IMG/VR virus record: IMGVR_UViG_3300044614_000667
Coordinates: 1 to 21,638 of that record
Reading direction: 5' to 3' (one strand)
From: a virus
DNA length: 21,638 bases
Shown one piece after another: positions 1,219-21,561 of the stretch (positions within the stretch are counted from its first letter, which is position 1; each line of letters starts with the position of its first letter). The translations under genes and the position numbers were made by a program. The notes beneath the pieces were generated by a model that did no database searches, had not been told where the DNA came from, and saw only the letters and a list, made by a program, of their open reading frames with translations.

Positions 1219-2883
1219 TTAAGTATTCTCTGGGTTAGTAGATCGGCCTACTTGATTACCTGCATAACTTAATGCAGGTTGTGGATTACCGGTGTTTATG
1301 TATTGTTTTGCTTCAGAGCTGGCTAAATTGGTAAATGCCACCGACGGTGCACTGGTACCCGGAATGACTGTTCTATTGTACGGAGTTTGAGCCAGTGGAC
1401 TTGTTGATGTGACTTCGGTAGATGTTCCTGTTGTGAAAGTTGGCGTAGTGGTTCCACTACTAAAATAGGAGCTGGTAGTATTGTTTACTTCTTTGTCTTT
1501 CTTTGCTTGCTCAGCTTTGGCTTTGGCTTCTCTTTCTTTTGCCACTTTCTGTAATGATGCGCCAAAGCTAAAGAAGTCCAATGGCGAACTACTAGACACT
1601 GCTTGTAGTGCACCAGATGCAATTTCAGCATTGCTTGTGGCCTCTGCGGGTTTTTCAATGTTCACTGTTTTGTCTATAGACCCACCGGTTATCTGATTTT
1701 TATTGTTTACTATTAACCCAGCAATGGCCAGGCCTACTCCTAATTCTGGTTTTCCGCTCAGTGCCAATGCTGCTCCGCCTCCAATTAATCCTGTTCCTAG
1801 ACTGATACCTGTTCCGTTGCTGTTTACACTGCCAGGAGCTACTCCTCCCGCACCCGGAGAGGTTGTTGATGTCTTTCCTGGTCTGTTGGCCAAACTTCCT
1901 GCTGCTGGTATAAAAAATCTATCTCTAGGATCTCTTCCGTTCAATATATCCATACCGGCGGTTAAAAGTTCGGCGCTTGCAAGACCTTTGAGGTCAACAT
2001 TTTTGTTTTTGTTGTATGATCTAAATAAACCAAATGCCCCCGCTGCAGGGTTCCTTACGAATCCATCAAGCGCAGATACAATACCACCTGGCCCGAGTAT
2101 ACTATTTGTTCCTCCGCCGGCTGCGGTTAATGGACTAGGTGATTTATCATAGTGCAGGTCAGCGAATCCTTTAACTGTATTTTTTGTAACATATCCGCTG
2201 GCATACAACATGGTGGTATATGCCAACGTCATCGAATGTTCAAGTCCTCCATTACTGCTGGCATTATGTGATCCGTGACTAAATGACACTATCATTGGAT
2301 TAACAAGAGTGTACTCACTGAATTTTTTCTGATGCAAACTATAAATTCTAACAGCTTGAATATATTGTGGTCCATTGACACCACCACCGTTTCTTGGAGT
2401 ATAACCAAAATTATTTAGAATATCTCTCTGCCCAAGTCTATATTGAGTTTTAGCGTGATAAAGAGGATGCACTGTTCCTGCACCGTCAGAATAGCTTGCA
2501 TCCATATCTCTATAGTAGTGATTGAAATAGTCAAACCACAAATTTCTTACAACATCAGACTGATCATCATGAAATGTTACTTGTACTGTATCATATTTTA
2601 CTTTTGTTTGTACAACTTCTGGTCTGTTATAACTATTAAAAGTTTTTGTATCAATGCTATATTTTGGAAGATCTACGGACTTTACTAGCATACCGGCTTC
2701 AAGAACTCGATCTCTATCTACCTTAGTAAGTGTGGGATCTAAATCAAAGTAAACGTGATAGAGCCAGTCGTATTTTGGGCTTAGAGCGTAATTATTATCT
2801 ACATACAGTCTACTGGCATGTTTAAAATCTTTAATCTGATCGCCGGTGGCTAACTGTTTAAAAAATCCGTCAAATATTCCCAT
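1219..2883 (-). CDS. 48: Baseplate tail-tube-cap-like protein (gp48-like)
   Basis: A 554-aa protein. The N-terminal 230 residues start MGIFDGFFKQLATGDQIKDF and contain LYHVYFDLDP, MLVKSVDLPKYSIDTK and YDTVQVTFHDDQSD motifs. From memory these fit the tube-fold baseplate cap/initiator proteins (gp48/gp54 type) of cyanophage-like T4 relatives, which join the baseplate hub to the tail tube. T4 gp48 is about 364 aa, so this one is long. The extra part has a Gly/Pro/Ser linker, a Gly- and Ala-rich hydrophobic stretch near residues 365-395, a Lys/Glu helix (KEREAKAKAEQAKKDKE) near 450 and a Ser/Thr-rich tail. A late promoter and Shine-Dalgarno AAAGG (8 nt) precede the ATG. It could instead be gp54 or a second tube-like protein. 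Confidence 0.65.
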   Translation of the reverse strand: MGIFDGFFKQLATGDQIKDFKHASRLYVDNNYALSPKYDWLYHVYFDLDPTLTKVDRDRVLEAGMLVKSVDLPKYSIDTKTFNSYNRPEVVQTKVKYDTVQVTFHDDQSDVVRNLWFDYFNHYYRDMDASYSDGAGTVHPLYHAKTQYRLGQRDILNNFGYTPRNGGGVNGPQYIQAVRIYSLHQKKFSEYTLVNPMIVSFSHGSHNASSNGGLEHSMTLAYTTMLYASGYVTKNTVKGFADLHYDKSPSPLTAAGGGTNSILGPGGIVSALDGFVRNPAAGAFGLFRSYNKNKNVDLKGLASAELLTAGMDILNGRDPRDRFFIPAAGSLANRPGKTSTTSPGAGGVAPGSVNSNGTGISLGTGLIGGGAALALSGKPELGVGLAIAGLIVNNKNQITGGSIDKTVNIEKPAEATSNAEIASGALQAVSSSSPLDFFSFGASLQKVAKEREAKAKAEQAKKDKEVNNTTSSYFSSGTTTPTFTTGTSTEVTSTSPLAQTPYNRTVIPGTSAPSVAFTNLASSEAKQYINTGNPQPALSYAGNQVGRSTNPENT

Positions 2884-2963: not shown

Positions 2964-3587
2964 TTAAGTTACGCCAGTAATAAGAGTACCTAGAGTACGT
3001 CCTACTGCTGTTCCAACTCCAGTACCAGTAGGAGTTTGAATTGCATTGTCGTAAGTAATTGTTAAAGTAATATCTGCAGGACTATTTTCTGTATATGCCA
3101 TTTCACCATAGTTCACCTGGTTAACAAATGCACCATACAGTTCCCATGTTTCTAATACGTTAGGTTGATTGGCTCCGTTACCACCATCTAACATTTCAAA
3201 TTTTAGAACAAATTTATAATCAATGCCAGAACTGGCTGACGCTTGCTCCATGAAGTCAAATTGTTTCTGAATTTGTTCGCCAACTAGTTTGCTTACGTTG
3301 CCGCCGGCGTCATCACGCAAAGTGACTGTAACTGGTTCCCAACTTGGCTTACCAACTAGATTAACTTTACTGTTATAAGCCTCAATGACAAAAGGATTGA
3401 AGTTTACATTAGGACGGCTAATGCTATTAACTTGCTTGGTTAACTCTACTCTGTCGCTACTTACACCAAAATTTTCAAATACCGCACGGAAGCGATATTT
3501 TAACTTAGGCATTAGCAGACCTTGTGTGCTAGCACTTTGATTAGTTGCTAAAGGTACTGTAAATCTGTTTAATGAGGCTATTGCCAT
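2964..3587 (-). CDS. 19: Tail tube protein gp19
   Basis: A 207-aa protein of the T4 gp19 tail-tube family, which polymerises into the rigid inner tube through which DNA passes. Recognisable segments are MPKLKYRFRAVFENFG, the QVNSISRPNVNFNP loop, GKPSWEPVTVTLRDD, a helix with LVGEQIQKQFDF, and the final strand SPADITLTITYDNA. T4 gp19 is 163 aa; the extra length is a Ser/Gln-rich N-terminus and a Gly/Thr-rich C-terminus. The ATG has a good ribosome binding site (AGGAG, 7 nt spacing) and its own late promoter. It follows the sheath gene, as in T4, and a strong terminator ends the unit. Confidence 0.9.
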   Translation of the reverse strand: MAIASLNRFTVPLATNQSASTQGLLMPKLKYRFRAVFENFGVSSDRVELTKQVNSISRPNVNFNPFVIEAYNSKVNLVGKPSWEPVTVTLRDDAGGNVSKLVGEQIQKQFDFMEQASASSGIDYKFVLKFEMLDGGNGANQPNVLETWELYGAFVNQVNYGEMAYTENSPADITLTITYDNAIQTPTGTGVGTAVGRTLGTLITGVT

Positions 3588-3664: not shown

Positions 3665-6600
3665 TTATACGCCTGCTGCAATATCACCTGGGTTCTTCAA
3701 TCTAATAGGAATGAAGATAAACTCAACATCTTTCATTGGTTCAATTGCAATATCCACATAAAGTTCATTACGTGCAATACGTGTAGGTGTATTGTTTGTG
3801 TCATCACACACTACCAAGTAGTCATAGATACCGCGCTTGGATACAAGATCATTGATAGCACCGCTAATAATGTTCTTGATCTGATCTCTTGTAATCTTAT
3901 CATTTGGTTCAAACAAGAAACCATTTCCTACATTAGCTAAAATTGTACGAATGTAGTTTACTAGACGTGCTACATTGATACGATCAAGACTGCTTGCAGT
4001 TGGATTACGTGTTTTCTGACCCCATACAACTAATCCTACACCCGGTAAGTTAGTAATTGGATTGATCTTGTTTTCATATAATGTGTCGCGTAAACCAGTG
4101 CGAATGCTGTTAAATTCAAATTCGCCTGTGGTAGCATTGATATAACCAATGCTGCTTGCATTATCAACTAATCCACGACGTGTACCAGCTGGTGCAAACC
4201 ACTGATACGCAACATTGTCGTTGAATATCATTGTACGTAATGCCATGTGGCTTGCTGGAACAACAACGTCATTACCTTGTAAGTCGCTGCTTCTACCGCA
4301 AGGATAATAAACACCCAAGTAAGGATCAGCAGTTGCTAGACCATCGCCATTGGTGTTATTGCTCCAGTTTGCAATGTCAATTGCATTAGGTGCTAATCTC
4401 ATTGGAGTGTCTCCAATGATAAATGCAGTGTTTGCACGATCGTTGTTTAATGCAACCATTTCGTCAATCAGTTCAGGATATCCTGGAGCGCAGATGATGT
4501 TAAATGCATACTGTTCTTCTCTAACTTCTGTGTTTGCAATAATCGCTGCTTGCATTGCTGCTGTAACCATACGACGTTGTGCTTGACGTCCCATATATGG
4601 ACTGCCATTGTCTTTGAGACCGCTTGCTGTTTGCCAAGTATCTTTAATAGTTGGCAATGAGCTGTTTGCACCTGGTACAGCTGGTAAATCAGGATATGCA
4701 TTAGCATTAAATTTATTGCTTACATATTGCTTTACGTTATAACCGCTACGACGTGTGTTGAATAGCAACATACCGCGTGGGTACAGTCTATAGTCTGGTG
4801 CATCTTGATCAAGATAATCACTTTCTAATAGATCTGTAATTGCTGGCAATGAGCCAGTAATGATATCTGTTGTACCGTCGGTATCCCAACGTGCATCAGC
4901 AAATACAATACCATTTTGACTAACTTGATCAGTATTGTCAATCAGAACCCATGTATCGGCATCGTCGTATCTGTAAATAGCAGGATAATTTTCTAAATCA
5001 CCTGTATCTAGCCATAAATCACCTGGCACCAATGAAGTAACGCCATCGCTTTGTTTTGTTGGCTCACTTGCACTTATAATAATACCATTGGAGTCAGTGG
5101 CTGATAAATCATATCCACGTGCATCTGTTGTTGTGCCATCATAGTAGCTACTGTGATATGATTTCCATCCGCCAATTTCGTTAATCATGATATCAACTGA
5201 TGCTGGATCGCTATAGTACCATAATGTACCTTCAGCTGGAGCCTGATACGGTTCAGTTGAACTATAAGTTAACACAAACGACGAGGTATTAGGAATTTCC
5301 CAATTGGTCAAAGCCAGTGTGGTACCATATTGTAATATACCTGTACTTCCATCAACTGTTGTTGCAATAAATCCAGCATCTGCAGTTGGTGTACCAACAC
5401 CGTCTGTCAAGTAAATATCACCACCGTAAATGTGTGTAAATGTGATAACACCGCTAGTACTTACACTGATATTAAGTTCTGGAATATTAAGAGCTAGTAC
5501 ATCACTTACAAAAGTACCGCGGCTTGTGCCTGTTAATATCACAGTATATTCTGTAATATCTGCGCTTCCAATTTCAGTTACGCCAATTACTAATTCGTCG
5601 CTGGCTGTAAATGGATTAGCACCAACTGCTGAACCGCTCACTACTGTTTGACCGGCAGTACGTCTACGGAATACTTTGTATCCGCCTGTATCAGTACGTA
5701 ATGGATCATATGCTATCCATACGGTACCAGCAGCGATACCATTGCCGCCACCGCTTGAATCAAGTCCGTACAATGCATCTTCTGCACGATTGTAGAATGG
5801 TGCCGCAAGAGGAGCCCATGTATCTGTACTTGAGCTATAACGCTTTATAACAATGTCCGCACCACTACCAGTAGCACCAACTTTTGCAAAGACACTACCA
5901 CTTGGACGTGGCACAGTGTCTGAACTTCTCCAGCTTGGCATGGCTGCAAAATCACCGTAAGTTAAAATAGGATTTGCGTAGGTGCCTGCTGTTATACCCA
6001 ACAATGTCAATGGAGTACCTGACAAATTAGACGAAATAGAAATTTTACCATCAGCTGTAGAGCCGTTGCTTTCTGCAAGACTGCTGGCATATAGATATAA
6101 TTTGCCGCCTACATTAGCCGCTGTTACACCAGTAATTGCTGCATTATTGATTTCGTTGACCACATAGTCAAGATTTCTTGATACTGATGTATTGTTAAAT
6201 GAAATTGTGTAATCTACATTAATAGTAATTGTATACGCAGTTCCGTTAACAGGCACAGTAGGATTACTTGCAGTACCTTTAATTGATGGCCAAGCTGTTT
6301 GCCATGCTGTGGTACCCAATCTTACCCAAGTATTATAATTTGTATTGTCTGTGCGTAAGTTAGATCCTGCTTTGTAGAATAGATTTGCGTTAGTACCTGT
6401 CCATGCCACTGCGTACTGACCAATTTGGCCAATACTGGTTTTTGGAGTGTAAACACCGCCAACAAGTGTAGAATCAGTGGCATTATCCGTAATTAGCAAC
6501 GGTGATTTTAAAGTAAATGCGTTGTTAACTGCATCCCACTCGTTAATACCCCAAGTTGACTCTGCTAAATCCATCCAGTGTGTTCCGTTTTCAACAGCAC

Positions 6601-6979
6601 CTGTTGGACGTACACTAGTACCTTCTAGTGCATTAAGATCCACGTCTGCACGGATAGCATAAATTCTGTTTACATTGCCTAGTGCGCTATAAGCTGCCAT
6701 TAGGCCGTATTCATTTCGTTCGTCTCCATGTAAAGGAGTACCTGCTGCGCTTTGTTTAAAGCTAGGATATCCCATTGCGTTAATAAGTTCGCGTTGGCTA
6801 CTAAATGCCAATAGTCTACCTGCTCTAGCAGCAGTAGTGTCAGACGCCAGAGCACCTGATGGATTTGTTTTATCTTGTGCAGTGGCCATTACAATCAATG
6901 GAACGGTTCCAACTGCGCCTGGTACGTATTGACTTTCGTCGGTTACGCTAATTTCTAAACCTGGAGATACTAGTGCCAT
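3665..6979 (-). CDS. 18: Contractile tail sheath protein gp18 (enlarged)
   Basis: A 1104-aa protein of the gp18 sheath family; T4 gp18 is 659 aa. The N-terminus MALVSPGLEISVTDES and the sequence through NRIYAIRADVDL (about residue 118) match the family. So does the C-terminal part from about residue 720, including NIICAPGYPELIDEM, GLVVWGQKTR and VNYIRTILANVGNGFLFEPN. Contraction of the sheath drives the tube through the cell envelope. Roughly residues 125-680 are extra, Thr/Gly/Ser-rich, and contain several GTxW or GDLW segments, so they are probably surface domains. I chose the ATG at 6979 over one six codons upstream because AAAGGAT lies at a proper distance and a perfect late promoter precedes it. 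Gene order sheath then tube is the T4 order. Confidence 0.93.
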   Translation of the reverse strand: MALVSPGLEISVTDESQYVPGAVGTVPLIVMATAQDKTNPSGALASDTTAARAGRLLAFSSQRELINAMGYPSFKQSAAGTPLHGDERNEYGLMAAYSALGNVNRIYAIRADVDLNALEGTSVRPTGAVENGTHWMDLAESTWGINEWDAVNNAFTLKSPLLITDNATDSTLVGGVYTPKTSIGQIGQYAVAWTGTNANLFYKAGSNLRTDNTNYNTWVRLGTTAWQTAWPSIKGTASNPTVPVNGTAYTITINVDYTISFNNTSVSRNLDYVVNEINNAAITGVTAANVGGKLYLYASSLAESNGSTADGKISISSNLSGTPLTLLGITAGTYANPILTYGDFAAMPSWRSSDTVPRPSGSVFAKVGATGSGADIVIKRYSSSTDTWAPLAAPFYNRAEDALYGLDSSGGGNGIAAGTVWIAYDPLRTDTGGYKVFRRRTAGQTVVSGSAVGANPFTASDELVIGVTEIGSADITEYTVILTGTSRGTFVSDVLALNIPELNISVSTSGVITFTHIYGGDIYLTDGVGTPTADAGFIATTVDGSTGILQYGTTLALTNWEIPNTSSFVLTYSSTEPYQAPAEGTLWYYSDPASVDIMINEIGGWKSYHSSYYDGTTTDARGYDLSATDSNGIIISASEPTKQSDGVTSLVPGDLWLDTGDLENYPAIYRYDDADTWVLIDNTDQVSQNGIVFADARWDTDGTTDIITGSLPAITDLLESDYLDQDAPDYRLYPRGMLLFNTRRSGYNVKQYVSNKFNANAYPDLPAVPGANSSLPTIKDTWQTASGLKDNGSPYMGRQAQRRMVTAAMQAAIIANTEVREEQYAFNIICAPGYPELIDEMVALNNDRANTAFIIGDTPMRLAPNAIDIANWSNNTNGDGLATADPYLGVYYPCGRSSDLQGNDVVVPASHMALRTMIFNDNVAYQWFAPAGTRRGLVDNASSIGYINATTGEFEFNSIRTGLRDTLYENKINPITNLPGVGLVVWGQKTRNPTASSLDRINVARLVNYIRTILANVGNGFLFEPNDKITRDQIKNIISGAINDLVSKRGIYDYLVVCDDTNNTPTRIARNELYVDIAIEPMKDVEFIFIPIRLKNPGDIAAGV

Positions 6980-7008
6980 GTTTTTATCCTTTAACAAACA
7001 TTTTGTAG

Positions 7009-12392: not shown

Positions 12393-13747
12393 TGAGTCAA
12401 CAATTTTTTTATGATGGTCAATTAAGAAGATTCCTAGTTCAATTCATGCGAATTGTCAGCGGAATTGACGTAGAGTTTGGAAAAAATACCCAAGGTGTTC
12501 GATCATTACAGCGTGTGCCTGTGTATTACGGCGACCAAAGCAGACAGGCAGCAATGATATTAAAAGGCAACAGTGAAAATACATTGAATGCTGTGCCAGC
12601 AATGTCAGTCTACATTGACGGATTGAACTACGATCAAACAAGAATGCAAGAACCAAATTTTGTTAGCAAGATGCATTTACGCGAACGTGAGTTTGACCCT
12701 GATACTGGGATGTATAACTCCAACCAAGGAGATAGTTATACTGTTGAGCGTTTAATGCCGGTTCCTTATAAACTGACTGTCAAGTTAGATATATGGACTA
12801 GCAATACCGAACAAAAAATGCAGATTATCGAACAGTTGGCTATATTGTTTAATCCCAGTTTAGAAATTCAAAGTACCGACAACTACATAGACTGGGCCAG
12901 TTTAACTTATGTACAACTGACAGAAATGATGTGGAGTTCTCGCGCTATACCAACCAGCACCGAAGAGCCTATTGATGTTGCTACGCTAACATTTGAAATG
13001 CCCATCTGGATTAGTGCGCCAGCAAAAGTTAAAAGATTGGGTGTTATACAAAAATTTATTGCCAACATTTATGATGAGCAAGGTGCTTTCAGTGAAGAAA
13101 CTGTGTTAACCAATTTGGTAAGTCGAGTCCGAATTACTCCAATGAATTATGGTATTTTTTATGCGGGCAATCAATTGCGTTTGTTGAAACCACAGGAAGT
13201 GGTAGACGACGAATCTAATATTACCAAAGTTGATCCACCTGATACCTGGCGAGCGTTCATTGATATCTACGGAACATTAATCACTGGTCAAAGTGAAATT
13301 AGAATTGAGTTGCCCACCGGAAACGAATTAATTGGGTCAATAACTTATCATCCTTCTGATCCAAATATATTGTTGTTTACTGCTGTTGAAGATACCATGC
13401 CGGTTAACACGCTAGAGGCCATTAATGCAATAATTAATCCACTCAATGTTGAAGTTGACAGTGGGTTATTGACTCCGGCAACAGGTACACGTTATTTGTT
13501 AACAGACAACATCGGCGATGATAGTAATCAATATTACAGTGCCTGGGGAACAATTGTTGCTCAGGAAAATGATATTATTGAATACACCGGCAGTGTATGG
13601 ACAAAAGTATTTGATAGTGCAAACAGTAATGAAATAGAGTATATAACTAATACCAACACTAATGTACAATACAGATGGACAGGTAGTGAGTGGGTCAAGA
13701 GCGTAGAAGGTGTTTATCGAGGTGGCGAGTGGAGTCTGATCATATAG
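12392..13747 (+). CDS. 15: Tail sheath stabiliser / tail completion protein gp15
   Basis: A 451-aa protein. The first ~230 residues match gp15, the hexameric cap that ends the tail and holds the sheath for joining to the neck. Landmarks are FYDGQLRRFLVQFMRI, RVPVYYGDQSRQAAMIL, VPAMSVYIDGLNYDQTR, LMPVPYKLTVKLDIWTSN and LFNPSLEIQSTDNYIDW. The closing segment is IWISAPAKVKRLGVI. T4 gp15 is 272 aa. The C-terminal ~220 residues are an addition with repeated short segments ending in GSVWTKVF, GSEWVKSV and GEWSLI. It starts on the stop codon of gp14. The Nudix gene begins inside its last 19 bases. Confidence 0.88.
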   Translation: MSQQFFYDGQLRRFLVQFMRIVSGIDVEFGKNTQGVRSLQRVPVYYGDQSRQAAMILKGNSENTLNAVPAMSVYIDGLNYDQTRMQEPNFVSKMHLREREFDPDTGMYNSNQGDSYTVERLMPVPYKLTVKLDIWTSNTEQKMQIIEQLAILFNPSLEIQSTDNYIDWASLTYVQLTEMMWSSRAIPTSTEEPIDVATLTFEMPIWISAPAKVKRLGVIQKFIANIYDEQGAFSEETVLTNLVSRVRITPMNYGIFYAGNQLRLLKPQEVVDDESNITKVDPPDTWRAFIDIYGTLITGQSEIRIELPTGNELIGSITYHPSDPNILLFTAVEDTMPVNTLEAINAIINPLNVEVDSGLLTPATGTRYLLTDNIGDDSNQYYSAWGTIVAQENDIIEYTGSVWTKVFDSANSNEIEYITNTNTNVQYRWTGSEWVKSVEGVYRGGEWSLII

Positions 13748-14175
13748 GTTGTGGCGCATTAATTTACAGTAAATCAACACAAAGATATCTTTTTTTACTT
13801 AGAAATCAAAAGAGGCATGCAGGCTCATGGGGATTGGTTGGTGGTGGTGTTGAATCCAACGAAACACCTTCAGAAGCACTGCACAGAGAGATTCAAGAAG
13901 AAATTGGTTTTATTCAAATTAGTAAGGTAATTCCTCTCGAAAAGTTTACCAGTGATACTAACAACTTTGAGTATCATACCTATCTTATAATCGTCGAAGA
14001 CGAATTTATTCCAAAATTAAACGATGAACATCGGGGATATGCATGGACTGAATTGGACGATCATCCCAAACCTTTGCATCCGGGTGTATGGCGTACTTTT
14101 AATTTTAAATCAATAATTGATAAAATCAAGACTGTGGAAAAGGTTATAGCCCAACCTCAGATGCAAATTGTCTAA
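13729..14175 (+). CDS. Nudix hydrolase
   Basis: A 148-aa protein with a complete Nudix box: Gly39-x5-Glu45-x7-Arg53-Glu54-x2-Glu57-Glu58-x-Gly60, read as GVESNE, then REIQEEIGF. Such enzymes cut nucleoside diphosphates linked to another group (for example ADP-ribose, NADH, dinucleoside polyphosphates or capped RNA). T4 also carries one (NudE); the substrate here cannot be inferred. I chose GTG at 13729 over GTG at 13690 because GAGG lies 6 nt before it and the longer start adds only an Arg-rich stretch inside gp15. It overlaps gp15 by 19 bp and the convergent minus-strand gene by 32 bp. Placement after structural gp14-gp15 implies late expression. Confidence 0.9.
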   Translation: MESDHIGCGALIYSKSTQRYLFLLRNQKRHAGSWGLVGGGVESNETPSEALHREIQEEIGFIQISKVIPLEKFTSDTNNFEYHTYLIIVEDEFIPKLNDEHRGYAWTELDDHPKPLHPGVWRTFNFKSIIDKIKTVEKVIAQPQMQIV

Positions 14176-14899
14176 AATCAATTTGTCTATAATTTAAACA
14201 ATATTTCCAGGCCTCAGGAGTTCTAAAACTAACAGTGGGTGCCACTCTAATAAATTCTGTCTCGTGGTAGGCAGACATCACTTCTTTTAAACTTAATACC
14301 CAAAAATCTTCTGGTATAACAGAATTCGTTGATGGATATCCTGTTGTTCCGTTATATACATTATAATTGTAGTTAGGAGTATCATTGCCATCAAATCCAA
14401 GCATGTACACTTTTTTATGTCCATCAAATGCTGCAAGATAAGCTGCTATTGCACCACTATTAAATTGTGGATTTTGCGGTATCAGATGAAATTTACCTGG
14501 AAGATTTACTAGCGGACTATTGTTTGCGTACACTACTCTACTATCGCAGTACCCGCTGTTGGCTACTTCTGTTAGTAGTGTATCGCCTGTAGCAATCAAA
14601 AAGTCTGGTCTGTAATCTCTAAAAAGTGCATTACATCCATAAGTTAAAAAATTAACTTTGTTTTCTTTTGATCTCCATGTATTAGGTGGAATGCGATAAT
14701 CTAAAAATCTTGAGCAGTCAAATTCTAATCTAGTAGGCCCGTTACCTAGAACTACTGCGTTTGTGCTATTAAGATCAACGCTAAAGCCATTTGCTACAAA
14801 TTCTACAGTAGGATTCCATTTTGAGTTTTGATAAACTCTATTTGTAATAACGTCCTCGCCGCGATAATCTTTACGATATAATTTTTTTATTGTTTGCAT
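14144..14899 (-). CDS. Rossmann-like glycosyltransferase/MptE-like protein (DUF115 or CST-I type)
   Basis: A 251-aa protein. After an N-terminal ~45 residues it shows AVVLGNGPTRLEFDCSRFL, then VNFLTYGCNALFRDYRPDFL, then SGAIAAYLAAFDGHKKVYML followed by GFDG. The NGP loop, the N(A/Q)LF segment and the SG-xxA-xxxxA helix followed by a GFD/GID strand are shared by CST-I-type sialyltransferases and DUF115/MptE-like proteins (family knowledge, from memory). A sugar-transfer role on virion fibres or host surface is an inference from its place at the end of the tail-fibre operon. A pyrophosphokinase-type activity cannot be excluded. It follows the chaperone-like gene by 4 nt and overlaps the convergent Nudix gene. 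Confidence 0.65.
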   Translation of the reverse strand: MQTIKKLYRKDYRGEDVITNRVYQNSKWNPTVEFVANGFSVDLNSTNAVVLGNGPTRLEFDCSRFLDYRIPPNTWRSKENKVNFLTYGCNALFRDYRPDFLIATGDTLLTEVANSGYCDSRVVYANNSPLVNLPGKFHLIPQNPQFNSGAIAAYLAAFDGHKKVYMLGFDGNDTPNYNYNVYNGTTGYPSTNSVIPEDFWVLSLKEVMSAYHETEFIRVAPTVSFRTPEAWKYCLNYRQIDFRQFASEVGL

Positions 14900-14903
14900 A
14901 ATC

Positions 14904-15218
14904 TTATTCCGGTTTAGGGTACTTATCTTTTATTGCCTGTATTTCTGCACGCCATGCATCGTATCCACCGTGATACAAGGTGTCAAATTGATCAGCAAAA
15001 CTAGGATATTCTTCCTTACGCAGTCGCTGATATTCTAACGCATCGTACTCCGCTTGCAGTCTAGCAATCTCTGTTTCAACTTCAAATTGAGTAGGACACG
15101 GAATAGTTTCATCTCTCCATTCAAGTCCGCCGTAATCTGATCCTCTGTGCGTCCATTGTGCAGTTGGATGTAAACTTACTAATGCTGCTGTTATGTCAAA
15201 TATTCTTCTTGTTGTCAT
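14904..15218 (-). CDS. Probable tail fibre assembly chaperone, 104 aa
   Basis: The protein begins MTTRRIFDITAALVSLHP. Its C-terminal half is a charged helix and a conserved-looking end: EYQRLRKEEYPSFADQFDTL, then YHGGYDAWRAEIQAIKDKYP. The YPSxxDQxDxLYH pattern is common in small proteins coded beside phage tail fibres, many annotated as tail assembly or fibre chaperones (from memory). A Trp-rich middle part (SDYGGLEWRDE) fits the same group. I chose the ATG at 15218, not one 25 codons upstream, because AAGGGG precedes it at 5 nt and it then clears the upstream gene by 11 nt. Its place right after six fibre-like genes supports a chaperone role. Binding partner unknown. Confidence 0.7.
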   Translation of the reverse strand: MTTRRIFDITAALVSLHPTAQWTHRGSDYGGLEWRDETIPCPTQFEVETEIARLQAEYDALEYQRLRKEEYPSFADQFDTLYHGGYDAWRAEIQAIKDKYPKPE

Positions 15219-15229
15219 GAAATCCCCTT

Positions 15230-15823
15230 TTACGCAATTGCCATTATGGTCAAGACTGGTATTCCAAGTTGAGTGCCACCAGCGCCATCCCAATAGGTAG
15301 TTCCGTGTAAATTTATAGGATTACCGGCTGCGTATCTTCTAAATTGCATTTTTAATGTTTTTGCTGTGGTCCATGTTGCTTGCCGTCCGGTATTATTATC
15401 TGTTGTTCCGCCAATAGCTATAGTCCATTCAAAAGTAAATCTTCCTTCCGGATAAAATCCAGATCTGCTGTGCCTGGCATAAATCACTTCATTTGCATCA
15501 ATAAGAAATTTATGATGACTTATACAGTGTGTACCACTGGGCCAGTGCCAATTGTACTGAAACATGTACTTTACTCTGGTTGTTCCGGCTGGAGGAGTGT
15601 ATGCAATACTTGAACCTGTGATATCTGCATGTGCATCTGTTCCTGTTTGTATGCCAGTCACATTACCAAAAGTGTAGGATCCTGATCCTACTACTACAGT
15701 GGATCCGTCACATGGACTGCTTAAATATTCTATAATTTGGCCTGGTTGACGAGGGTATCCATTGGCAATCACGACGCTGCCTGCGGTGTTTTTTATATCA
15801 TCAACTCTTAGTACTGACGGCAT
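15230..15823 (-). CDS. Tail-fibre-like paralogue C2 (197 aa)
   Basis: Last of six tandem ~190-aa paralogues. The N-terminus VLRVDDIKNTAGSVVIANGY, then PRQPGQIIEYLSSPCDGSTV, carries the PG-x-(I/V)-(I/V) segment seen in all six. The C-terminal part is beta-rich and contains FEWTIAIGG, TGRQATWTTAKTLKMQFR and TYWDGAGG. It pairs with the gene upstream (C1): the two share the GYPRQPG, CDG and NTGRQATWTT segments. From memory, proteins with the GYPRQPGxIIEYL/CDGS start are frequent virion or fibre-tip components in aquatic phages. Unlike its five sisters it has its own late promoter and a good ribosome binding site (AAGGA, 6 nt). A receptor-binding or fibre-tip role is inferred from position and composition. 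Confidence 0.8.
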   Translation of the reverse strand: MPSVLRVDDIKNTAGSVVIANGYPRQPGQIIEYLSSPCDGSTVVVGSGSYTFGNVTGIQTGTDAHADITGSSIAYTPPAGTTRVKYMFQYNWHWPSGTHCISHHKFLIDANEVIYARHSRSGFYPEGRFTFEWTIAIGGTTDNNTGRQATWTTAKTLKMQFRRYAAGNPINLHGTTYWDGAGGTQLGIPVLTIMAIA

Positions 15824-15839
15824 TTATTGTCCTTTTTAG

Positions 15840-15847
15840 TATTTAAC
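15840..15847 (-). promoter_or_regulatory. Late promoter core (GTTAAATA) before paralogue C2
   Basis: The minus strand reads GTTAAATA just after the stop of paralogue C1 and 16 nt before the C2 ATG, with AAGGA between. It gives C2 and the chaperone-like and transferase-like genes a promoter separate from the main fibre operon. Confidence 0.55.
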
Positions 15848-15851
15848 TTGT

Positions 15852-16436
15852 TTACGCTGTGGCAATTATACTTAACTGTGGCATACTAAATTGATTTACT
15901 GTAGCCCCGTCCCAGTAGTACGTGCCGTTTAAATTAGCATCGTTGCTGGCTCCGTACTGTCTAAACTGCATATACAATGTTTTAGGTGTAGTCCATGTTG
16001 CTTGTCTGCCGGTATTTGCATTGGCAGTGCCACCAATATCAATGGTCCATTCAAACGAGTTTCGATCTTCTATTAGTCTACCAGATCTATTGTGCCTGGC
16101 ATAAACTACTTCCTCGCCATCTATAAAAAATTTATAGTGATTGATAGCATGGTCCGAATCCCAATAACTAGCAAAATGATATCTATAGGTCACTGCGTTT
16201 GTTCCTAGTGGAGGCACATAATCAATCACTGACCCTCTTATTGTGGTGTAAGTGGTGGTAGAAATCTGCGCTGCAGATACTTGTTGAAATTGGTAAGTGC
16301 CTGACGCAACACGAACAATAGATCCGTCACACATTCCAGTTAAGTATTCTATAATTCTTCCTGGCTGTCTTGGATACCCGTTAACTAATATCTCCTGCCC
16401 GGCGCTATTTTGTATTAAATCAACTTTGGCAGACAT
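15852..16436 (-). CDS. Tail-fibre-like paralogue C1 (194 aa)
   Basis: Fifth of six tandem paralogues and the sister of C2. It begins MSAKVDLIQNSAGQEILVNG, then YPRQPGRIIEYLTGMCDGS. The beta-rich C-terminal part has YKFFIDGEEVVYARHNRSG, FEWTIDIGG, NTGRQATWTTPKTLYMQFR and TYYWDGATV. I chose the ATG at 16436, nine codons inside the longer ORF, because it overlaps the upstream stop as TAATG. The sequence GGAGG, about 10 nt before it, is coded by the upstream gene's conserved C-terminus. No signal peptide or membrane segment. Function unknown; a fibre or fibre-tip protein is inferred. Confidence 0.8.
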   Translation of the reverse strand: MSAKVDLIQNSAGQEILVNGYPRQPGRIIEYLTGMCDGSIVRVASGTYQFQQVSAAQISTTTYTTIRGSVIDYVPPLGTNAVTYRYHFASYWDSDHAINHYKFFIDGEEVVYARHNRSGRLIEDRNSFEWTIDIGGTANANTGRQATWTTPKTLYMQFRQYGASNDANLNGTYYWDGATVNQFSMPQLSIIATA

Positions 16437-16993
16437 TATGTAGCAACCTCCGTTATGTTCCACCCATATTCCATGTATTGATCCACTAGATAATTGGTAG
16501 CAGTTGATGACCAGTTTCTGTAGCGCAATTGATATACAACATTTGCTGTGGTGCTGGGTCTGTCAAGAAATGTAATTTTTTGCGGAGCCCATGTATTGCT
16601 ATTATAACTCCAGCCGTAATTATATCTAGTTCCAGTAATTGGAGTTAATGCCACAAAGCTAGATCCTCCGTCTGTGCTTCGATATAATACCGTCACTAAA
16701 GCATTGGCTGCACCATACATCATTTGCGACCACCATTCTACTAGAATTTTACTAGACGCATTTGTTGGATTCATCCAAACTTTTAATCCCAATGTAGTTT
16801 CTGCGGTTGAGGTCACTGTCAATGCTGCGGTTGTAGAAGCATTGCTAGATACGGTTTGTACTATTTCTCCTACTCTAGGTGGAGAGAAAAAAGTATTAGC
16901 TGATGTTCCAATAATTTTATTTCCTGTTGGTATTGTAATAGTACCAACATTGCCCAACGAGGCCAAGCTATCTGTTCTTACAATACCTGGCAT
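16436..16993 (-). CDS. Tail-fibre-like paralogue B2 (185 aa)
   Basis: Fourth of six tandem paralogues; sister of B1. The N-terminus has MPGIVRTDSLASLGNVGTIT, then a TGNKIIGT and PPRVGEIVQTV region. The C-terminal part is a likely beta sandwich: SSKILVEWWSQMMYGAANAL, RYNYGWSYNSNTWAP, VVYQLRYRN and TNYLVDQYMEYGWNITEV. The last motif matches B1 (TNYFMHQYMEYGWNLTEI). The ATG at 16993 forms a TAATG overlap with B1 and uses GGAG in B1's C-terminal codons. I rejected the nine-codon-longer start because it would lie inside B1. No known domain can be named with certainty. A trimeric fibre-tip or receptor-binding role is inferred from context. Confidence 0.8.
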   Translation of the reverse strand: MPGIVRTDSLASLGNVGTITIPTGNKIIGTSANTFFSPPRVGEIVQTVSSNASTTAALTVTSTAETTLGLKVWMNPTNASSKILVEWWSQMMYGAANALVTVLYRSTDGGSSFVALTPITGTRYNYGWSYNSNTWAPQKITFLDRPSTTANVVYQLRYRNWSSTATNYLVDQYMEYGWNITEVAT

Positions 16994-17547
16994 TATGCAT
17001 AAATCTCCGTCAAGTTCCAACCGTATTCCATATATTGATGCATAAAATAATTTGTTGCTGTTCCAGAGGCATTTCTATAATTTACTCTATAAGTCACAGT
17101 TGAAGTAGTATTTGGTGTGTCGTGATAGGTATGCACAGCAGACTGCCATTGAGATTGTACATATGCCCAACCGTATGCATATCTTGCTGCTGCGTTAGTG
17201 AATGGTGTTAATACATTATACCCTGCGTTACCAATGTCTCTGTACAACAAAAGAATCATAGGGCTACCTGCACCGTATTGCATAGTACACCAAAGTTCAA
17301 CTTTTATTTTACTAGTGGCATATCGAGGAGTAATGCTGCATGTCAGTGGAGCAGAAATTTCAGGTGTGTTAGCAATGCTCAAATGCGATGTTGGCATAGC
17401 ATTGGCTGTGACCAATTGAACAATACCGCCCGCTCTAGGTGGTCCATCGAATGTGCCTGGGTCGGTTCCTACCAATCTATTGCCAGCTGGTATAACAATA
17501 TTTCCTGTTCCGGTACTGTACGTAATTTGATCTACTTTTAATGTCAT
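16993..17547 (-). CDS. Tail-fibre-like paralogue B1 (184 aa)
   Basis: Third of six tandem paralogues; sister of B2. It begins MTLKVDQITYSTGTGNIVIP, then AGNRLVGT and PPRAGGIVQLV, the same anchor-like start as B2. The C-terminal beta-rich part has TSKIKVELWCTMQYGAG, ARYAYGWAYVQSQWQ and TNYFMHQYMEYGWNLTEI. The ATG at 17547 makes an ATGA overlap with A2, and GGGAG in the last codons of A2 (Trp-Glu) lies 8 nt upstream. A start five codons earlier exists but lacks its own ribosome binding site. Function inferred as for the rest of the array. Confidence 0.8.
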   Translation of the reverse strand: MTLKVDQITYSTGTGNIVIPAGNRLVGTDPGTFDGPPRAGGIVQLVTANAMPTSHLSIANTPEISAPLTCSITPRYATSKIKVELWCTMQYGAGSPMILLLYRDIGNAGYNVLTPFTNAAARYAYGWAYVQSQWQSAVHTYHDTPNTTSTVTYRVNYRNASGTATNYFMHQYMEYGWNLTEIYA

Positions 17548-18125
17548 TGTGCAATCTCCCATGCCATACCGTAGCTGACTCCGTTTTCATAACTGGTAGT
17601 ACCTGTACTGCCTGCTGTTCTATTTAAGAACCAAGTATAACTTGTTCCGGCAGTATTTTTTACGCCAGGAGCATAAGTTAATATATCTGTGGTTTTTGGA
17701 AAATCAAAATATCTCATAGTAGATGTAAATGGTGTTGAATTATAATCTGTTTCGTATGGCAACGGCATTGCATACCCTGACCAAAATTGTTTATCGGCTT
17801 GGTTGTTGTATCCAGCATAAGGTCCGTCAGGCACAGCACCATTTTTAAAAATGGTCATCACATAGTCGTGTGTGCTAGCACCTTCACCAAACATTTGAAA
17901 ACTGCACATTATCATACTGGTAAGCATTTTTGGTTTAATAGCAATTCTCATGTCTACAAATTCCACCCCGTTATGACTGGTTCCTGTAGTGTACGTGGTC
18001 AACATATCATATCTTTTTACCACACACTGAACAACTGACCCAGGACTAATAATCGAATGTCCAGCCGACATTACTATTGTGTTTCCTGTTAATGCTTTTA
18101 TATTACCAACAGTTAAAACTGTCAT
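17544..18125 (-). CDS. Tail-fibre-like paralogue A2 (193 aa)
   Basis: Second of six tandem paralogues; sister of A1, with more than half of positions identical by eye. It begins MTVLTVGNIKALTGNTIVMS, then AGHSIISPGSVVQCVVKRYD. Shared with A1 are LTTYTTGT/ATTYTTGT, FGEGAS/HGEGAS, FKNGAVP, YAGYN, WSGYAMPLPYE, DYNSTPFT, ILTYAPGVK, LNRT, STGTT, ENGVS and the end AWEIAQ. The beta-strand pattern suggests a jelly-roll-like fold (inference). Its ATG is in an ATGA overlap with the A1 stop. Most differences from A1 lie between the shared blocks. Confidence 0.82.
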   Translation of the reverse strand: MTVLTVGNIKALTGNTIVMSAGHSIISPGSVVQCVVKRYDMLTTYTTGTSHNGVEFVDMRIAIKPKMLTSMIMCSFQMFGEGASTHDYVMTIFKNGAVPDGPYAGYNNQADKQFWSGYAMPLPYETDYNSTPFTSTMRYFDFPKTTDILTYAPGVKNTAGTSYTWFLNRTAGSTGTTSYENGVSYGMAWEIAQ

Positions 18126-18709
18126 TGTGCAATTTCCCAGGCAATGCTTACACTTACACCGTTTTCTTGATTTGTTGTACCAGTACTAGAAACGGTTCTG
18201 TTTAGGTACCAGACATAGCTGGTAGCCGAGCTTACTTTAATACCAGGAGCATAGGTTAATGCGCTGGTCACTCCTGGAAAATCATAGTACATAAAATTTT
18301 GCGTAAATGGAGTACTACTGTAATCACCTTCATAAGGTAACGCCATGGCAATGCCGGACCAGTGCTGATCGCCAGCAGCAGTATTGTATCCTGCATACGT
18401 ACCAGCAGGAACTGATCCATTTTTAAATACTCTGAATATATAGTTGTGATCGCTTGCGCCCTCGCCATGCACTTGAAACTGACATATGATCAAACTGTTG
18501 GCTCGCTTTGGAGTTATACTAACTCTGAGATCTGTCATCTCTACACCGTTCAACCCTGTGCCTGTGGTGTATGTTGTGGCAGTATCGTATCGTCGTACCT
18601 GGCACTGTATTACCGATCCTGGGTTTATTAAACTGTGGCCATTAGTGACTAAAATTTGATTATTATTTGATACTGTGCCGGATAATCTACTGACAGTTAA
18701 ATTACTCAT
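18122..18709 (-). CDS. Tail-fibre-like paralogue A1 (195 aa)
   Basis: First of six tandem paralogues. It begins MSNLTVSRLSGTVSNNNQIL, then NGHSLINPGSVIQCQVRRYD, the anchor-like start with the PGSVIQ segment. The C-terminal part is beta-rich and ends SVSIAWEIAQ. The ATG directly follows the stop of the 275-aa fibre gene (TAAATG), so the array is an extension of the fibre operon. In many phages a series of small proteins after long fibres forms fibre tips or alternative receptor binders; here that is an inference. No catalytic motif is visible. Confidence 0.82.
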   Translation of the reverse strand: MSNLTVSRLSGTVSNNNQILVTNGHSLINPGSVIQCQVRRYDTATTYTTGTGLNGVEMTDLRVSITPKRANSLIICQFQVHGEGASDHNYIFRVFKNGSVPAGTYAGYNTAAGDQHWSGIAMALPYEGDYSSTPFTQNFMYYDFPGVTSALTYAPGIKVSSATSYVWYLNRTVSSTGTTNQENGVSVSIAWEIAQ

Positions 18710-19537
18710 TTACACAATACTCCATTCGCCGCCGTCGTTGATCACTACCTCTACTCCGTCTGCGATTGTCATTGGCCCAATACTCATTGCATTCTCAGTA
18801 GCGCCAATGGTCACATTAGCTGATATAGTTCTTGTGTTATAATAAAACTGTCCAGTATTGTTTACTCTTGCTGCTGTAAGATTATTAGTTGTGCTAATAT
18901 TTCCAGTGGTACTAATAAGTCCAGAAGCGTTAATATTTCCAGCTACACCAATTCCGCCTGCAACTACTAATGCACCTGTAGTAGTGGATGTTGAAGGAAT
19001 TGGTGATGCGGCAACTATGTTTCCGGCTGCTATCACTTCTCCGGCAATACCAACACCTCCGCGAACTACTAATGCTCCGGTGTCCGACGATGTAGAAGAA
19101 GTGGTTGCACCAATAACAGTATTACCGCGAACTGTGGTTGATAACGCTACACTGCCGTCTCTAGCAATTAAATGCAGCATTGGTACTGCATTATCAAACA
19201 CCGATCTGGCAGTTGAATCAATTACCACACCGTTTCCGGAACTGCCCACCGATGCCGACACGTACATTGTACCAGTAGTGCCGGCACCGTTGTTATTAAC
19301 ATACATCCGATAGCCATTGCCATTGGTTGTACCGGCAAAAATGTTTCCGCTGGTAGTTATTCCCCCGTTTGTTGTTAACGAGTCACTACCAGAATTAGTT
19401 AATACTAATTTGTCAAAAGTCAGTGTAGCTGATGCATTAGATGTTCTTACCCAAGCATCCTTTGTAGAGTTATAGGTATAAACTACATTGTTTACAATAG
19501 CCTGTTGACCGTTTGTTGGATTAGTTGGAAAGGACAT
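18710..19537 (-). CDS. Tail fibre protein, 275 aa, with TGALVV repeats
   Basis: The N-terminus FPTNPTNGQQAIVNNVVYTY followed by NSTKDAWVRTS is a common opening module of phage fibre proteins. The rest is Gly/Thr/Ser/Asn-rich with two copies of a TGALVVxGGxGIAG/GVAG repeat (TGALVVRGGVGIAG and TGALVVAGGIGVAG), each followed by xxAxGNIxA-type strands. Such repeats form extended beta-structured shafts. The short C-terminal part ends VEVVINDGGEWSIV. It starts on the stop codon of the 674-aa fibre (TAATG) and shares the repeat with it. It probably lies in series with, or parallel to, that fibre. It is shorter than typical long tail fibres, so a partner or tip protein is likely. Confidence 0.82.
   Translation of the reverse strand: MSFPTNPTNGQQAIVNNVVYTYNSTKDAWVRTSNASATLTFDKLVLTNSGSDSLTTNGGITTSGNIFAGTTNGNGYRMYVNNNGAGTTGTMYVSASVGSSGNGVVIDSTARSVFDNAVPMLHLIARDGSVALSTTVRGNTVIGATTSSTSSDTGALVVRGGVGIAGEVIAAGNIVAASPIPSTSTTTGALVVAGGIGVAGNINASGLISTTGNISTTNNLTAARVNNTGQFYYNTRTISANVTIGATENAMSIGPMTIADGVEVVINDGGEWSIV
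18937..18997 (-). repeat. Fibre repeat copy 1 (codes TGALVVAGGIGVAG)
   Basis: About 60 bp of related DNA occurs three times. Two copies are in the 275-aa fibre (here and at 19039-19100) and one is in the 674-aa fibre (20947-21003). The protein repeat is kept better than the DNA, so these are old coding repeats rather than fresh duplications. Confidence 0.75.
19039..19100 (-). repeat. Fibre repeat copy 2 (codes TGALVVRGGVGIAG)
   Basis: Second copy in the 275-aa fibre, about 100 bp from copy 1, with the same Ser/Thr-rich lead-in and Gly-rich end. Confidence 0.75.
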
Positions 19538-21561
19538 TAAAATCTCCCTACTACAACTTCAATTGTTTTCAATTCATTGTCCTTTATATCTTCAAGACTC
19601 TTGCCTATTACACACCCCGGAGCATACTTTAAAATATTCAATCGTTCAGCCGCGCCTGATGTAGTACTTGATACCAACAGATCACCTTTGTTCACTGGCC
19701 CAATAACCTGGCACGGAACTCTGCCTGTTAATGCCACTGGCAACCCATTGGCGCTTGAATTCATTATGTATGCTGGATTAGTAGATATTACTCCAGCGAC
19801 TCTTGAATCGTGATCTACAGTAGACACAGTGATTTCTTTTGTACCTCCAAAAATTACTACTGTGCCAGGAGCATACTCAAAGTCTGCATCGTATTTTTCG
19901 GCCAAGTCAGCATATTGTGCTGATGTTGATTTAGCAAAAATTGTATTAAACGCAGTTGTTGAAGAACCAATATTACCAACACCATTACTACCCCCATTAG
20001 CAATAGCTATTGGTTGTCCGTCGGAGTTGACTGATAGTAATCTTGTAGTAGTCAGTGTATTTGCTGTTAGACCTCTTGTGATCGCTGCATTACTGTTAAT
20101 AATAAGGTTCCCGGCTGTTAGAGTCTGATTCACTATTATTGTGTTTGCTACTAACACGTTGGCCACGTTTGCCGCGGCTGAACCTGTGTCTACCCAGATA
20201 CTGCTGGTCCCATCTGATATTCTAGAAAACAAAATGTCAGTGTCAGTATCATACCAATAATCACCTAGTCTAGGCGAACTGGGTGCAGTATTTGCGGCAG
20301 TAAATTGTATACCAGTGAAAGGTTCGTTGTTTGCTGACCAGAATACACCCGAGCCTGTATACAGACCGCCTACTGTAGTATTCCCAGCAATATTGGCCGA
20401 AGTGGGATTAAATTCTGTATTAGGTCCAAAACTTACAGTATGATTCCCGCTAGTGAACGACCAAACACCACTGGTATTGACGCTCATTGATTCTGGTCCA
20501 AGATAAACAGTGTTTCCACTTAACCAAAGATCCTTCCATCTTAGATTACTTGAACCTAGACTGTAGGTAACATTCGCATCTGGAATTAAATTTCCTTGTA
20601 CTCTCAAGTTGCCACTATTGGCCACAATATTACTATCAAGTGATAACCAACCCAGTCTCAGTGAATCATACACTATATCAGAATCTGACCAGTTTATTGT
20701 AGCCCCAGGCTCGGAATCTACATTGCTAAATAATTTCCATTGACTTGTAGCATAATCTCTAACTAGTCCAGTGTGTTGATATACATTGGCGCTTCCGCCT
20801 ACAAACTGACTAAAGAATCCTATATCATATACATACGGATAAGTTACGTTAGCTGTAAGATAAAGTAAAGGATCTTGAACATTTATAGTATGTGATGCAA
20901 TCGAAAGCAAATTTGATGCAAAAATATTTCCTGTGACAAATAAATTACCTGCTATGCCTGCACCGCCTTTGACAACCAACGCCCCTGTTGTTGAAGATAT
21001 TGATTCTGTAAGCGAATTAATAACAACATTACTAGTTGTTGAATTACCTAGTATAACGTTTCCAGTAGCGATAACATTCCCGGTTTCAACATAATAGTTA
21101 AAATCGCTAGCACCAGAGAAGGTACCGTTGCTGTTATACTGAATGTTTCTATTGGCACCTGCTACTCCTCCGGCAGCGCCTGCAGCATCAACAAAGGTTA
21201 AATCAGTTGTGCCAAGAATGATAGGATTACCTGTGGTTAGTCGCCAGGCCTTGCCTACGTAAGTTCCTTCTTCAATTGTGGTTGTAAGACCTGGAGTAAC
21301 TCTATCGTTAGTGTTTGCATCATAGCTACGTATCCAGGTCCCGTTACTTCCTGTGCCTACTGTTTGTACTACGTAAATACCATTTTGACTTGCTGTGCTT
21401 TGCCCTGCTACCAAAATACGGTCACCGGCTACCAAAGTTATGCTGTCGTAAGTGCCGGGTGCGCCGCCGCTCAGGGTAATATTAGTAGTGGTAACAACCC
21501 TACAACTTGCTTTGTAATCAGTATCTACAATGTTGCTGTATCTTGGTCTAGTTAATGCCAT
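19537..21561 (-). CDS. Long tail fibre-type protein, 674 aa, with Peptidase_G2-like end
   Basis: The N-terminal module (residues ~10-125) contains LVAGDRILVAGQSTASQNGI, TWIRSYDANTN and an EGTYVGKAWRLTT segment, a common phage fibre opening. The middle is a Gly/Asn/Ser-rich shaft with one TGALVVKGGAGIAG repeat near residue 190. A GDYWYDT...SIWVDTG module lies near residue 430. The C-terminal ~140 residues (SAQYADLAEKYDADFEYAPG, VVIFGG, VAGVISTNPAYIMN, GRVPCQVIGPVNKGDLL, VIGKSLEDI) resemble the Peptidase_G2/intramolecular-chaperone-like ends of marine phage fibres. Self-cleavage is known for some relatives but not shown here. A late promoter core and a weak GGAT ribosome binding site precede the ATG. 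It heads the fibre operon. Confidence 0.85.
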   Translation of the reverse strand: MALTRPRYSNIVDTDYKASCRVVTTTNITLSGGAPGTYDSITLVAGDRILVAGQSTASQNGIYVVQTVGTGSNGTWIRSYDANTNDRVTPGLTTTIEEGTYVGKAWRLTTGNPIILGTTDLTFVDAAGAAGGVAGANRNIQYNSNGTFSGASDFNYYVETGNVIATGNVILGNSTTSNVVINSLTESISSTTGALVVKGGAGIAGNLFVTGNIFASNLLSIASHTINVQDPLLYLTANVTYPYVYDIGFFSQFVGGSANVYQHTGLVRDYATSQWKLFSNVDSEPGATINWSDSDIVYDSLRLGWLSLDSNIVANSGNLRVQGNLIPDANVTYSLGSSNLRWKDLWLSGNTVYLGPESMSVNTSGVWSFTSGNHTVSFGPNTEFNPTSANIAGNTTVGGLYTGSGVFWSANNEPFTGIQFTAANTAPSSPRLGDYWYDTDTDILFSRISDGTSSIWVDTGSAAANVANVLVANTIIVNQTLTAGNLIINSNAAITRGLTANTLTTTRLLSVNSDGQPIAIANGGSNGVGNIGSSTTAFNTIFAKSTSAQYADLAEKYDADFEYAPGTVVIFGGTKEITVSTVDHDSRVAGVISTNPAYIMNSSANGLPVALTGRVPCQVIGPVNKGDLLVSSTTSGAAERLNILKYAPGCVIGKSLEDIKDNELKTIEVVVGRF
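20947..21003 (-). repeat. Fibre repeat copy 3 (codes TGALVVKGGAGIAG)
   Basis: Third copy, in the 674-aa fibre. Sharing across two adjacent genes points to an origin by duplication or recombination within the fibre region. Confidence 0.72.

Follow-up and report, generated by a model that had tools for sequence, protein, structure and literature searches.

A tandem array of six paralogous genes as a putative tail-fibre-tip cassette of C1q/TNF-type folds in a T4-like phage

The stretch of DNA analysed here (the window) comprises 21,638 bases, an IMG/VR viral contig (record IMGVR_UViG_3300044614_000667) that derives from a T4-like phage. It carries an array of six tandem paralogous genes that probably constitutes a tail-fibre-tip cassette, the six products of which would be made together and take fixed, non-equivalent places. 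The sequence-only reading of this DNA had described six consecutive genes encoding 184–197 amino acids (aa), and the array indeed comprises six adjacent minus-strand open reading frames lying exactly at 18709–15230. They are listed below, with protein lengths resting on the most likely start codons; pLDDT denotes the predicted local distance difference test score of AlphaFold.

18122..18709, minus strand: A1, predicted fibre-tip protein of C1q/TNF fold, 195 aa; phrog_6942 (tail fibre C-terminus), E 3.7e-18; pLDDT 87.2; Pgp3 C-terminal domain, Z 12.9
17544..18125, minus strand: A2, paralogue of A1, 193 aa; 58% identical to A1; phrog_6942, E 2.9e-16; start overlaps the A1 stop (ATGA)
16993..17547, minus strand: B1, 184 aa; phrog_6942, E 6e-10; homologous to A (hhalign); start overlaps the A2 stop (ATGA)
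16436..16993, minus strand: B2, 185 aa; 44% identical to B1; phrog_6942, E 1.4e-8; TAATG overlap with B1
15852..16436, minus strand: C1, 194 aa; 56% identical to C2; TAATG overlap with B2
15230..15823, minus strand: C2, protein of predicted C1q/TNF fold, 197 aa; pLDDT 92.6; Pgp3 and PLTL, Z 10.0

The six genes are closely packed. From the 275-aa gene directly upstream through C1, the junctions read TAAATG, ATGA, ATGA, TAATG, and TAATG; gaps of 28 and 11 bases precede C2 and the following 104-aa gene, respectively. Given these overlaps and short gaps, the array is one gene series and very probably an operon. A standard promoter scan of the array region found no more sites than in shuffled sequences. 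The N-terminal pattern earlier proposed for the array, with Q as its last residue, is present in all six proteins, although those of the C type end it with P-G-x-I-I-E.

The paralogues fall into types A, B, and C. By full-length blastp, the paired members are 58% (A1/A2), 44% (B1/B2), and 56% (C1/C2) identical. Between types, A2 and B1 match with E=3e-4, and C has no detectable blastp match to A or B; the pairs are therefore more alike within than between, as had been claimed. Profile comparison reaches further. The A and B profiles are homologous (hhalign probability 97.8), and a 31-member C profile aligns with an 80-member A/B profile across ~94 columns at the N-terminus (probability 95.3). 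Controls with reversed profiles, and with 40 profiles whose columns had been shuffled, gave a maximum probability of 1.8, so the relation of C to A/B is due neither to chance nor to composition. The A and B types match the tail fibre C-terminal family phrog_6942 at profile positions ~527–707. Neither C1 nor C2 has such a match, nor does any of the 31 members of the C family, for which there is essentially no PHROG or Pfam entry; a pattern scan of bacterial genome contigs found no C-type relatives. The C type is tied to A and B solely by profile-profile comparison and fold. The common ancestry proposed for the three types agrees with these profile matches and with the common fold of the A and C models.

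The AlphaFold models of A1 and C2 are both nearly all-beta jelly-roll sandwiches, and Foldseek and VIA-align group them with C1q/TNF-type heads. The C-terminal domain of Chlamydia Pgp3 matches A1 with a Z score of 12.9 (root mean square deviation (rmsd) 2.7, 135 aligned residues) and C2 with 10.0 (rmsd 2.8, 127 aligned residues). Further matches are the TNF-like lectins PLTL and BC2L-C (Z 11.4 and 11.2 for A1, 10.0 and 9.7 for C2), Bacillus BclA (9.5 for A1, 8.9 for C2), and C1q (8.8 for A1). As Z scores of 7–8 are typical for unmatched models, A1 lies clearly and C2 modestly above that level. Among predicted viral proteins (BFVD), the matches of the C2 model at ranks 4 and 5 are A-type array proteins of the cyanomyoviruses ACG-2014j and S-WAM2 (E 8e-8 and 1e-7; template modelling score ~0.57). 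Matches to nanobody and flavivirus envelope chains were at chance level and were disregarded. A1 and C2 are hence modelled as C1q/TNF-type jelly rolls, a fold type that normally forms trimers, and the possibility raised earlier that the types have unrelated folds does not apply to A and C. Pgp3, BC2L-C, PLTL, BclA, and C1q resemble A1 and C2 in the jelly-roll fold of the models; they differ in being non-phage proteins with no significant sequence relation, and such a fold-only match says nothing on function.

The placement at fibre tips that the sequence-only reading had suggested gains support from family membership, domain fusions, and gene order. The A/B domain corresponds to the C-terminal ~180 residues of the phrog_6942 'tail fiber protein', which is matched by 68 of the 80 A/B family members. 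In PDB entry 9efk, residues 491–657 at the C-terminus of orf22 (658 aa, 18 chains) are a relative of the A/B family by sequence (E 3.8e-27). This orf22 differs from the array in that the domain forms part of one long protein and is not split into separate genes; its 18 copies would suit six trimeric fibres. The A/B domain also stands at the C-terminus of contig proteins whose lengths range from 379 to 1475 aa, and is fused to longer proteins in the related loci L071 and L088 (loci bear L numbers). In L028/L170, the C domain forms the end of a 960-aa fibre, and a free A protein and a chaperone-type gene come next, so that fused and free tips coexist. In the window as in P-SSP7, S-WAM2, and ACG-2014j, the array is encoded after tail fibre genes and has a putative fibre-chaperone gene downstream. 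The flanking genes of the window are the following.

19537..21561, minus strand: 674-aa tail fibre, upstream of the array; phrog_11518 tail fibre, E 7.8e-29
18710..19537, minus strand: 275-aa fibre-like protein, putative attachment partner, directly upstream; phrog_5342 tail fibre, E 5e-4 (weak); stop abuts the A1 start
14904..15218, minus strand: phrog_9114 protein of 104 aa and putative chaperone of tail-fibre assembly; counterparts follow the arrays in S-WAM2 and P-SSP7 and most mixed A/B/C arrays

The window's 104-aa protein has no match to PF16778 (Phage_tail_APC). In three loci, namely L165, L171, and ACG-2014j, the gene in the equivalent place does match PF16778 above the curated cut-off, and the L165 protein matches the 'tail fiber assembly' family phrog_4912 and, with its N-terminal half, phrog_9114. 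Synteny and this common N-terminal profile support the 104-aa protein as a putative fibre-assembly chaperone. Of 18 distinct mixed A+C runs, 13 have a chaperone-type gene immediately after them, as do 11 of 16 triples of A/B type only. As an observation in its own right, phrog_9114, a family listed with no assigned function, resembles in its N-terminal half a PF16778-type tail-fibre assembly chaperone from the same genomic place, which suggests an assignment for the family.

Relatives carry one to six copies in varying mixes, which bears out the copy-number variation that the sequence-only reading had looked for. The six-gene AABBCC array of the window recurs in L005 and L006/L007 and is the largest array seen. 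Other metagenomic arrays are ABBCC (L013, L014, and L018), AAACC (L024–L026), ACA (L016 and L162–L164), and many singles and pairs. In the first locus set, the distinct complete arrays comprise 54 single, 39 double, 13 triple, 4 five-gene, and 3 six-gene arrays, counts that are biased by the search seeds and by how loci were fetched. Melnitz-type methylophages have two members followed by a gene annotated as tail fibre assembly. The order is C-B-B-ab-chaperone in L171–L174 and ab-chaperone-B-C in L176/L178, which means that distant lineages do not keep one gene order. One family relative lies in the 39-kb record of Limnohabitans phage DC33 (L153, PQ492659.1), which is classed under Inoviridae but is tailed-phage-like in size and genes, possibly a taxonomy error.

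In the trees, A1, A2, B1, B2, C1, and C2 of the window each fall together with their positional counterparts in L005 and L007. Grouping by position is also seen within the S-WAM2-like set and, for the most part, between L106 and L148. Because the genes of close relatives cluster by position and not by genome, concerted evolution or gene conversion is disfavoured. The sequence-only reading held that an ancestral gene diverged into three types, each of which then duplicated. This holds for A1/A2 only, which the trees identify as a duplication within this lineage; the tree does not settle the order of the B duplication (approximately unbiased (AU) test, p=0.233), and C1+C2 as a sister pair is rejected (AU p=0.0003). 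In the tree, C2 joins the only C member of L020, although C1 and C2 are mutual best matches inside the window. All six genes are under purifying selection, with nonsynonymous differences (pN) of 0.06–0.21 versus synonymous differences (pS) of 0.63–0.82 between the window and L007; synonymous sites are near saturation, which makes omega values rough only.

The array is 67–90% identical between L005 and the window, compared with 37–48% for the two upstream fibres and 58% for the glycosyltransferase-like gene (251 aa). Between L012 and L007, the C genes are 86–93% identical and the sheath-completion protein gp15 is 57% identical. From these contrasts, the cassette appears to move between phages, whole or in pieces, and an array more alike than its upstream fibres is as expected for an exchangeable host-range module.

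Comparable arrangements exist in annotated phage genomes. The T7-like Prochlorococcus podovirus P-SSP7 encodes, right after the tail fibre gene gp17, three tandem ~190-aa members annotated 'tail fiber protein' (PSSP7_037/038/039), a 96-aa phrog_9114 gene, and a fourth member (041). These members match by hidden Markov model (HMM) with E 1e-24 to 1e-37, and for one of them the A/B profile match (3.8e-34) is joined by a weak match to the C profile (5.7e-4). P-SSP7 differs from the window in its T7-like virion, its 3+1 copies, and its membership of the A/B superfamily with a single weakly C-like member. S-WAM2 and ACG-2014j, which are T4-like, have three tandem A-type 'tail fiber protein' genes after a very long fibre; the array is followed by a phrog_9114 gene in the former and by a PF16778 gene in the latter. 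They differ from the window in having A-type genes only, in three copies with no B or C, and a far longer upstream fibre. In the myocyanophage Pam3, gp24 forms a trimeric tail fibre that contains a TNF-like domain, the fibre chaperone gp25 is encoded separately, and gp24 is found in virions (PMC9608196). Unlike the array, the Pam3 fibre comes from a single gene, includes a helical shaft of its own and a glycine-rich tip, and has no tandem array. The earlier statement that no described system has this layout is partly answered, since P-SSP7 and the cyanomyoviruses hold three-gene versions annotated as tail fibre. In the open-access literature (subscription papers fell mostly outside the search), we found no paper treating such arrays as a system and none on C1q/TNF-like phage fibres. 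What was already known is a one-gene TNF-like fibre with a chaperone, together with annotated three-gene versions; the addition is a multi-paralogue C1q-fold cassette, which is largest in the window lineage.

The proposed mechanism is as follows. Six co-transcribed and probably translationally coupled genes would yield small proteins, each with a short N-terminal anchor and a C1q/TNF-type jelly roll, and the 104-aa chaperone would help to fold them. Anchored by their N-termini, the proteins would cap the fibre that the 674- and 275-aa genes upstream encode, form trimers, and contact receptors, all six holding fixed, non-equivalent tip places and not serving as switchable alternatives. The computed evidence comprises homology, the A1 and C2 folds, position-specific orthology, purifying selection, synteny, C-terminal fusions, and cassette exchange. 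That the nearest solved relatives of A1 and C2 are trimeric heads and lectins counts for this mechanism. A 137-kb relative (a linear record that may be incomplete) has no match to reverse transcriptase (PF00078) or resolvase/invertase (PF00239), and inverted repeats in the array region are short and imperfect only. From the position-specific clades, the purifying selection, and the lack of any sign of an invertase or diversity-generating element, we infer that the six proteins are probably made together and co-assembled. Several points weigh against the proposed cassette. The N-terminal ~28 residues of A1 are modelled with low confidence (pLDDT 52–65), leaving their anchor role putative; the predicted B-type fold derives from profile homology to A; gene order differs in distant lineages, so that fixed places hold among close relatives only; many single-gene and pair relatives lack a chaperone-type gene, which is hence not obligatory; and Pam3 gp24 is likened to the array by domain description, not by sequence.

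A special form of this reading is that A, B, and C chains mix in one heterotrimeric tip, as A1B1C1 plus A2B2C2 or in other combinations. The A, B, and C chains of C1q mix within one trimer in this way. The array proteins belong to the same fold family as C1q, to judge from the Z of 8.8 for A1, and come in three paralogous types that are each present twice; array sizes three and six recur (13 and 3 distinct complete arrays), and order is fixed and clades are separate among close relatives. A strict rule of multiples of three was rejected as support, since sizes 1, 2, 3, 5, and 6 all occur. With four distinct five-gene arrays, many pairs, mixes such as AAACC, ACA, and CC that break a 1:1:1 rule, and most known proteins of C1q/TNF fold being homotrimers, we regard mixed trimers as rather unlikely. 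Homotrimers of six types might instead compete for one site at the fibre end, so that each virion carries a random mix and the phage gains host breadth. The homologous N-terminal region of all six proteins and the varying array composition among phages, as expected of interchangeable members, speak for such competition; the conserved position-specific lineages and the fibre-fused C domain beside a free A protein in L170 speak against it and make it unlikely.

That the proteins decorate the head or neck, or are other virion surface adhesins, finds some basis in the neck and sheath-completion genes adjoining the array and in jelly rolls known from other surface proteins. It is improbable in view of the C-terminal fusions to long fibres, the adjoining fibre-assembly chaperone, and the placement right after gp17 in P-SSP7. 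The sequence-only reading had also offered a set of alternative tips, which can be taken to mean a reserve from which one tip at a time is used through recombination or switching. Exchange of the cassette between phages would accord with this. The position clades, the intact genes under purifying selection in relatives, the overlapping cistrons, the short and imperfect inverted repeats, and the lack of an invertase or reverse transcriptase in the possibly incomplete 137-kb record disfavour it, and we hold it to be very improbable.

Beyond the cassette of co-made proteins, a broader proposal is that several C1q-fold paralogues build one hetero-oligomeric tip, which would parallel the multi-chain head of C1q. 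The A/B/C mix would then be a general, undescribed design common to T4-like, T7-like, and jumbo-related phages, with array members setting host range. We offer this proposal tentatively, as a possibility that falls short of being probable.

The rest of the window has recognisable genes for the tail tube, a 1110-aa sheath, the head-tail adaptor, sheath completion, and head closure. Its sheath-completion protein (gp15) is closest to those of the jumbo phages PA5oct/Cassandra, Atu_ph07, and Phosso, with 33–36% identity. A NUDIX-type gene (13690–14175), assigned by position and by 83–89% identical relatives and not by a family search, follows the sheath-completion gene, and likewise in Cassandra. 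In Cassandra, the member of the Pseudomonas jumbo group nearest by gp15, no annotated array adjoins the NUDIX gene, and an HMM search covering that locus gave no match. Four side observations concern this setting. The 554-aa protein at 1219–2883 (minus strand) adjoins the ordinary tail tube gene at 2964–3587; at its N-terminus lies a further tail-tube-like domain (phrog_4542, E 1.2e-11), and the remainder is a long tail rich in Ser, Thr, and Gly. The tail sheath at 3665–6997 (minus strand) is unusually long at 1110 aa, its conserved match lying mainly in the C-terminal half (540–1103 for phrog_10581, 553–1094 for phrog_23). The 251-aa protein at 14144–14899 (minus strand), directly after the array and the chaperone gene, shows a weak likeness to the sialyltransferase family (phrog_4603, E 0.004). 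Lastly, the proteins of L155/L008 (IMGVR_UViG_3300034272_000589) are 100% identical to those of the window over the common part, and this record is probably of the same virus population and not an independent relative.

Little is known about host recognition in many aquatic phages. According to a review, cyanomyoviruses lack the long-fibre genes of T4, and the proteins that take over this role have not been identified (PMC2984593), and the near-atomic structure of a T7-like cyanophage leaves the distal fibre unresolved (PMC10575957). The C1q-fold arrays are concrete candidates for such missing tip proteins in virions of unrelated types. Should the paralogues co-assemble, one phage would expose several receptor-binding surfaces simultaneously, and metagenomic contigs could be read for the array as an exchangeable host-range module. 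With one to six such genes in differing mixes among related phages, the set lends itself to the question of how a single phage presents more than one receptor-binding tip.

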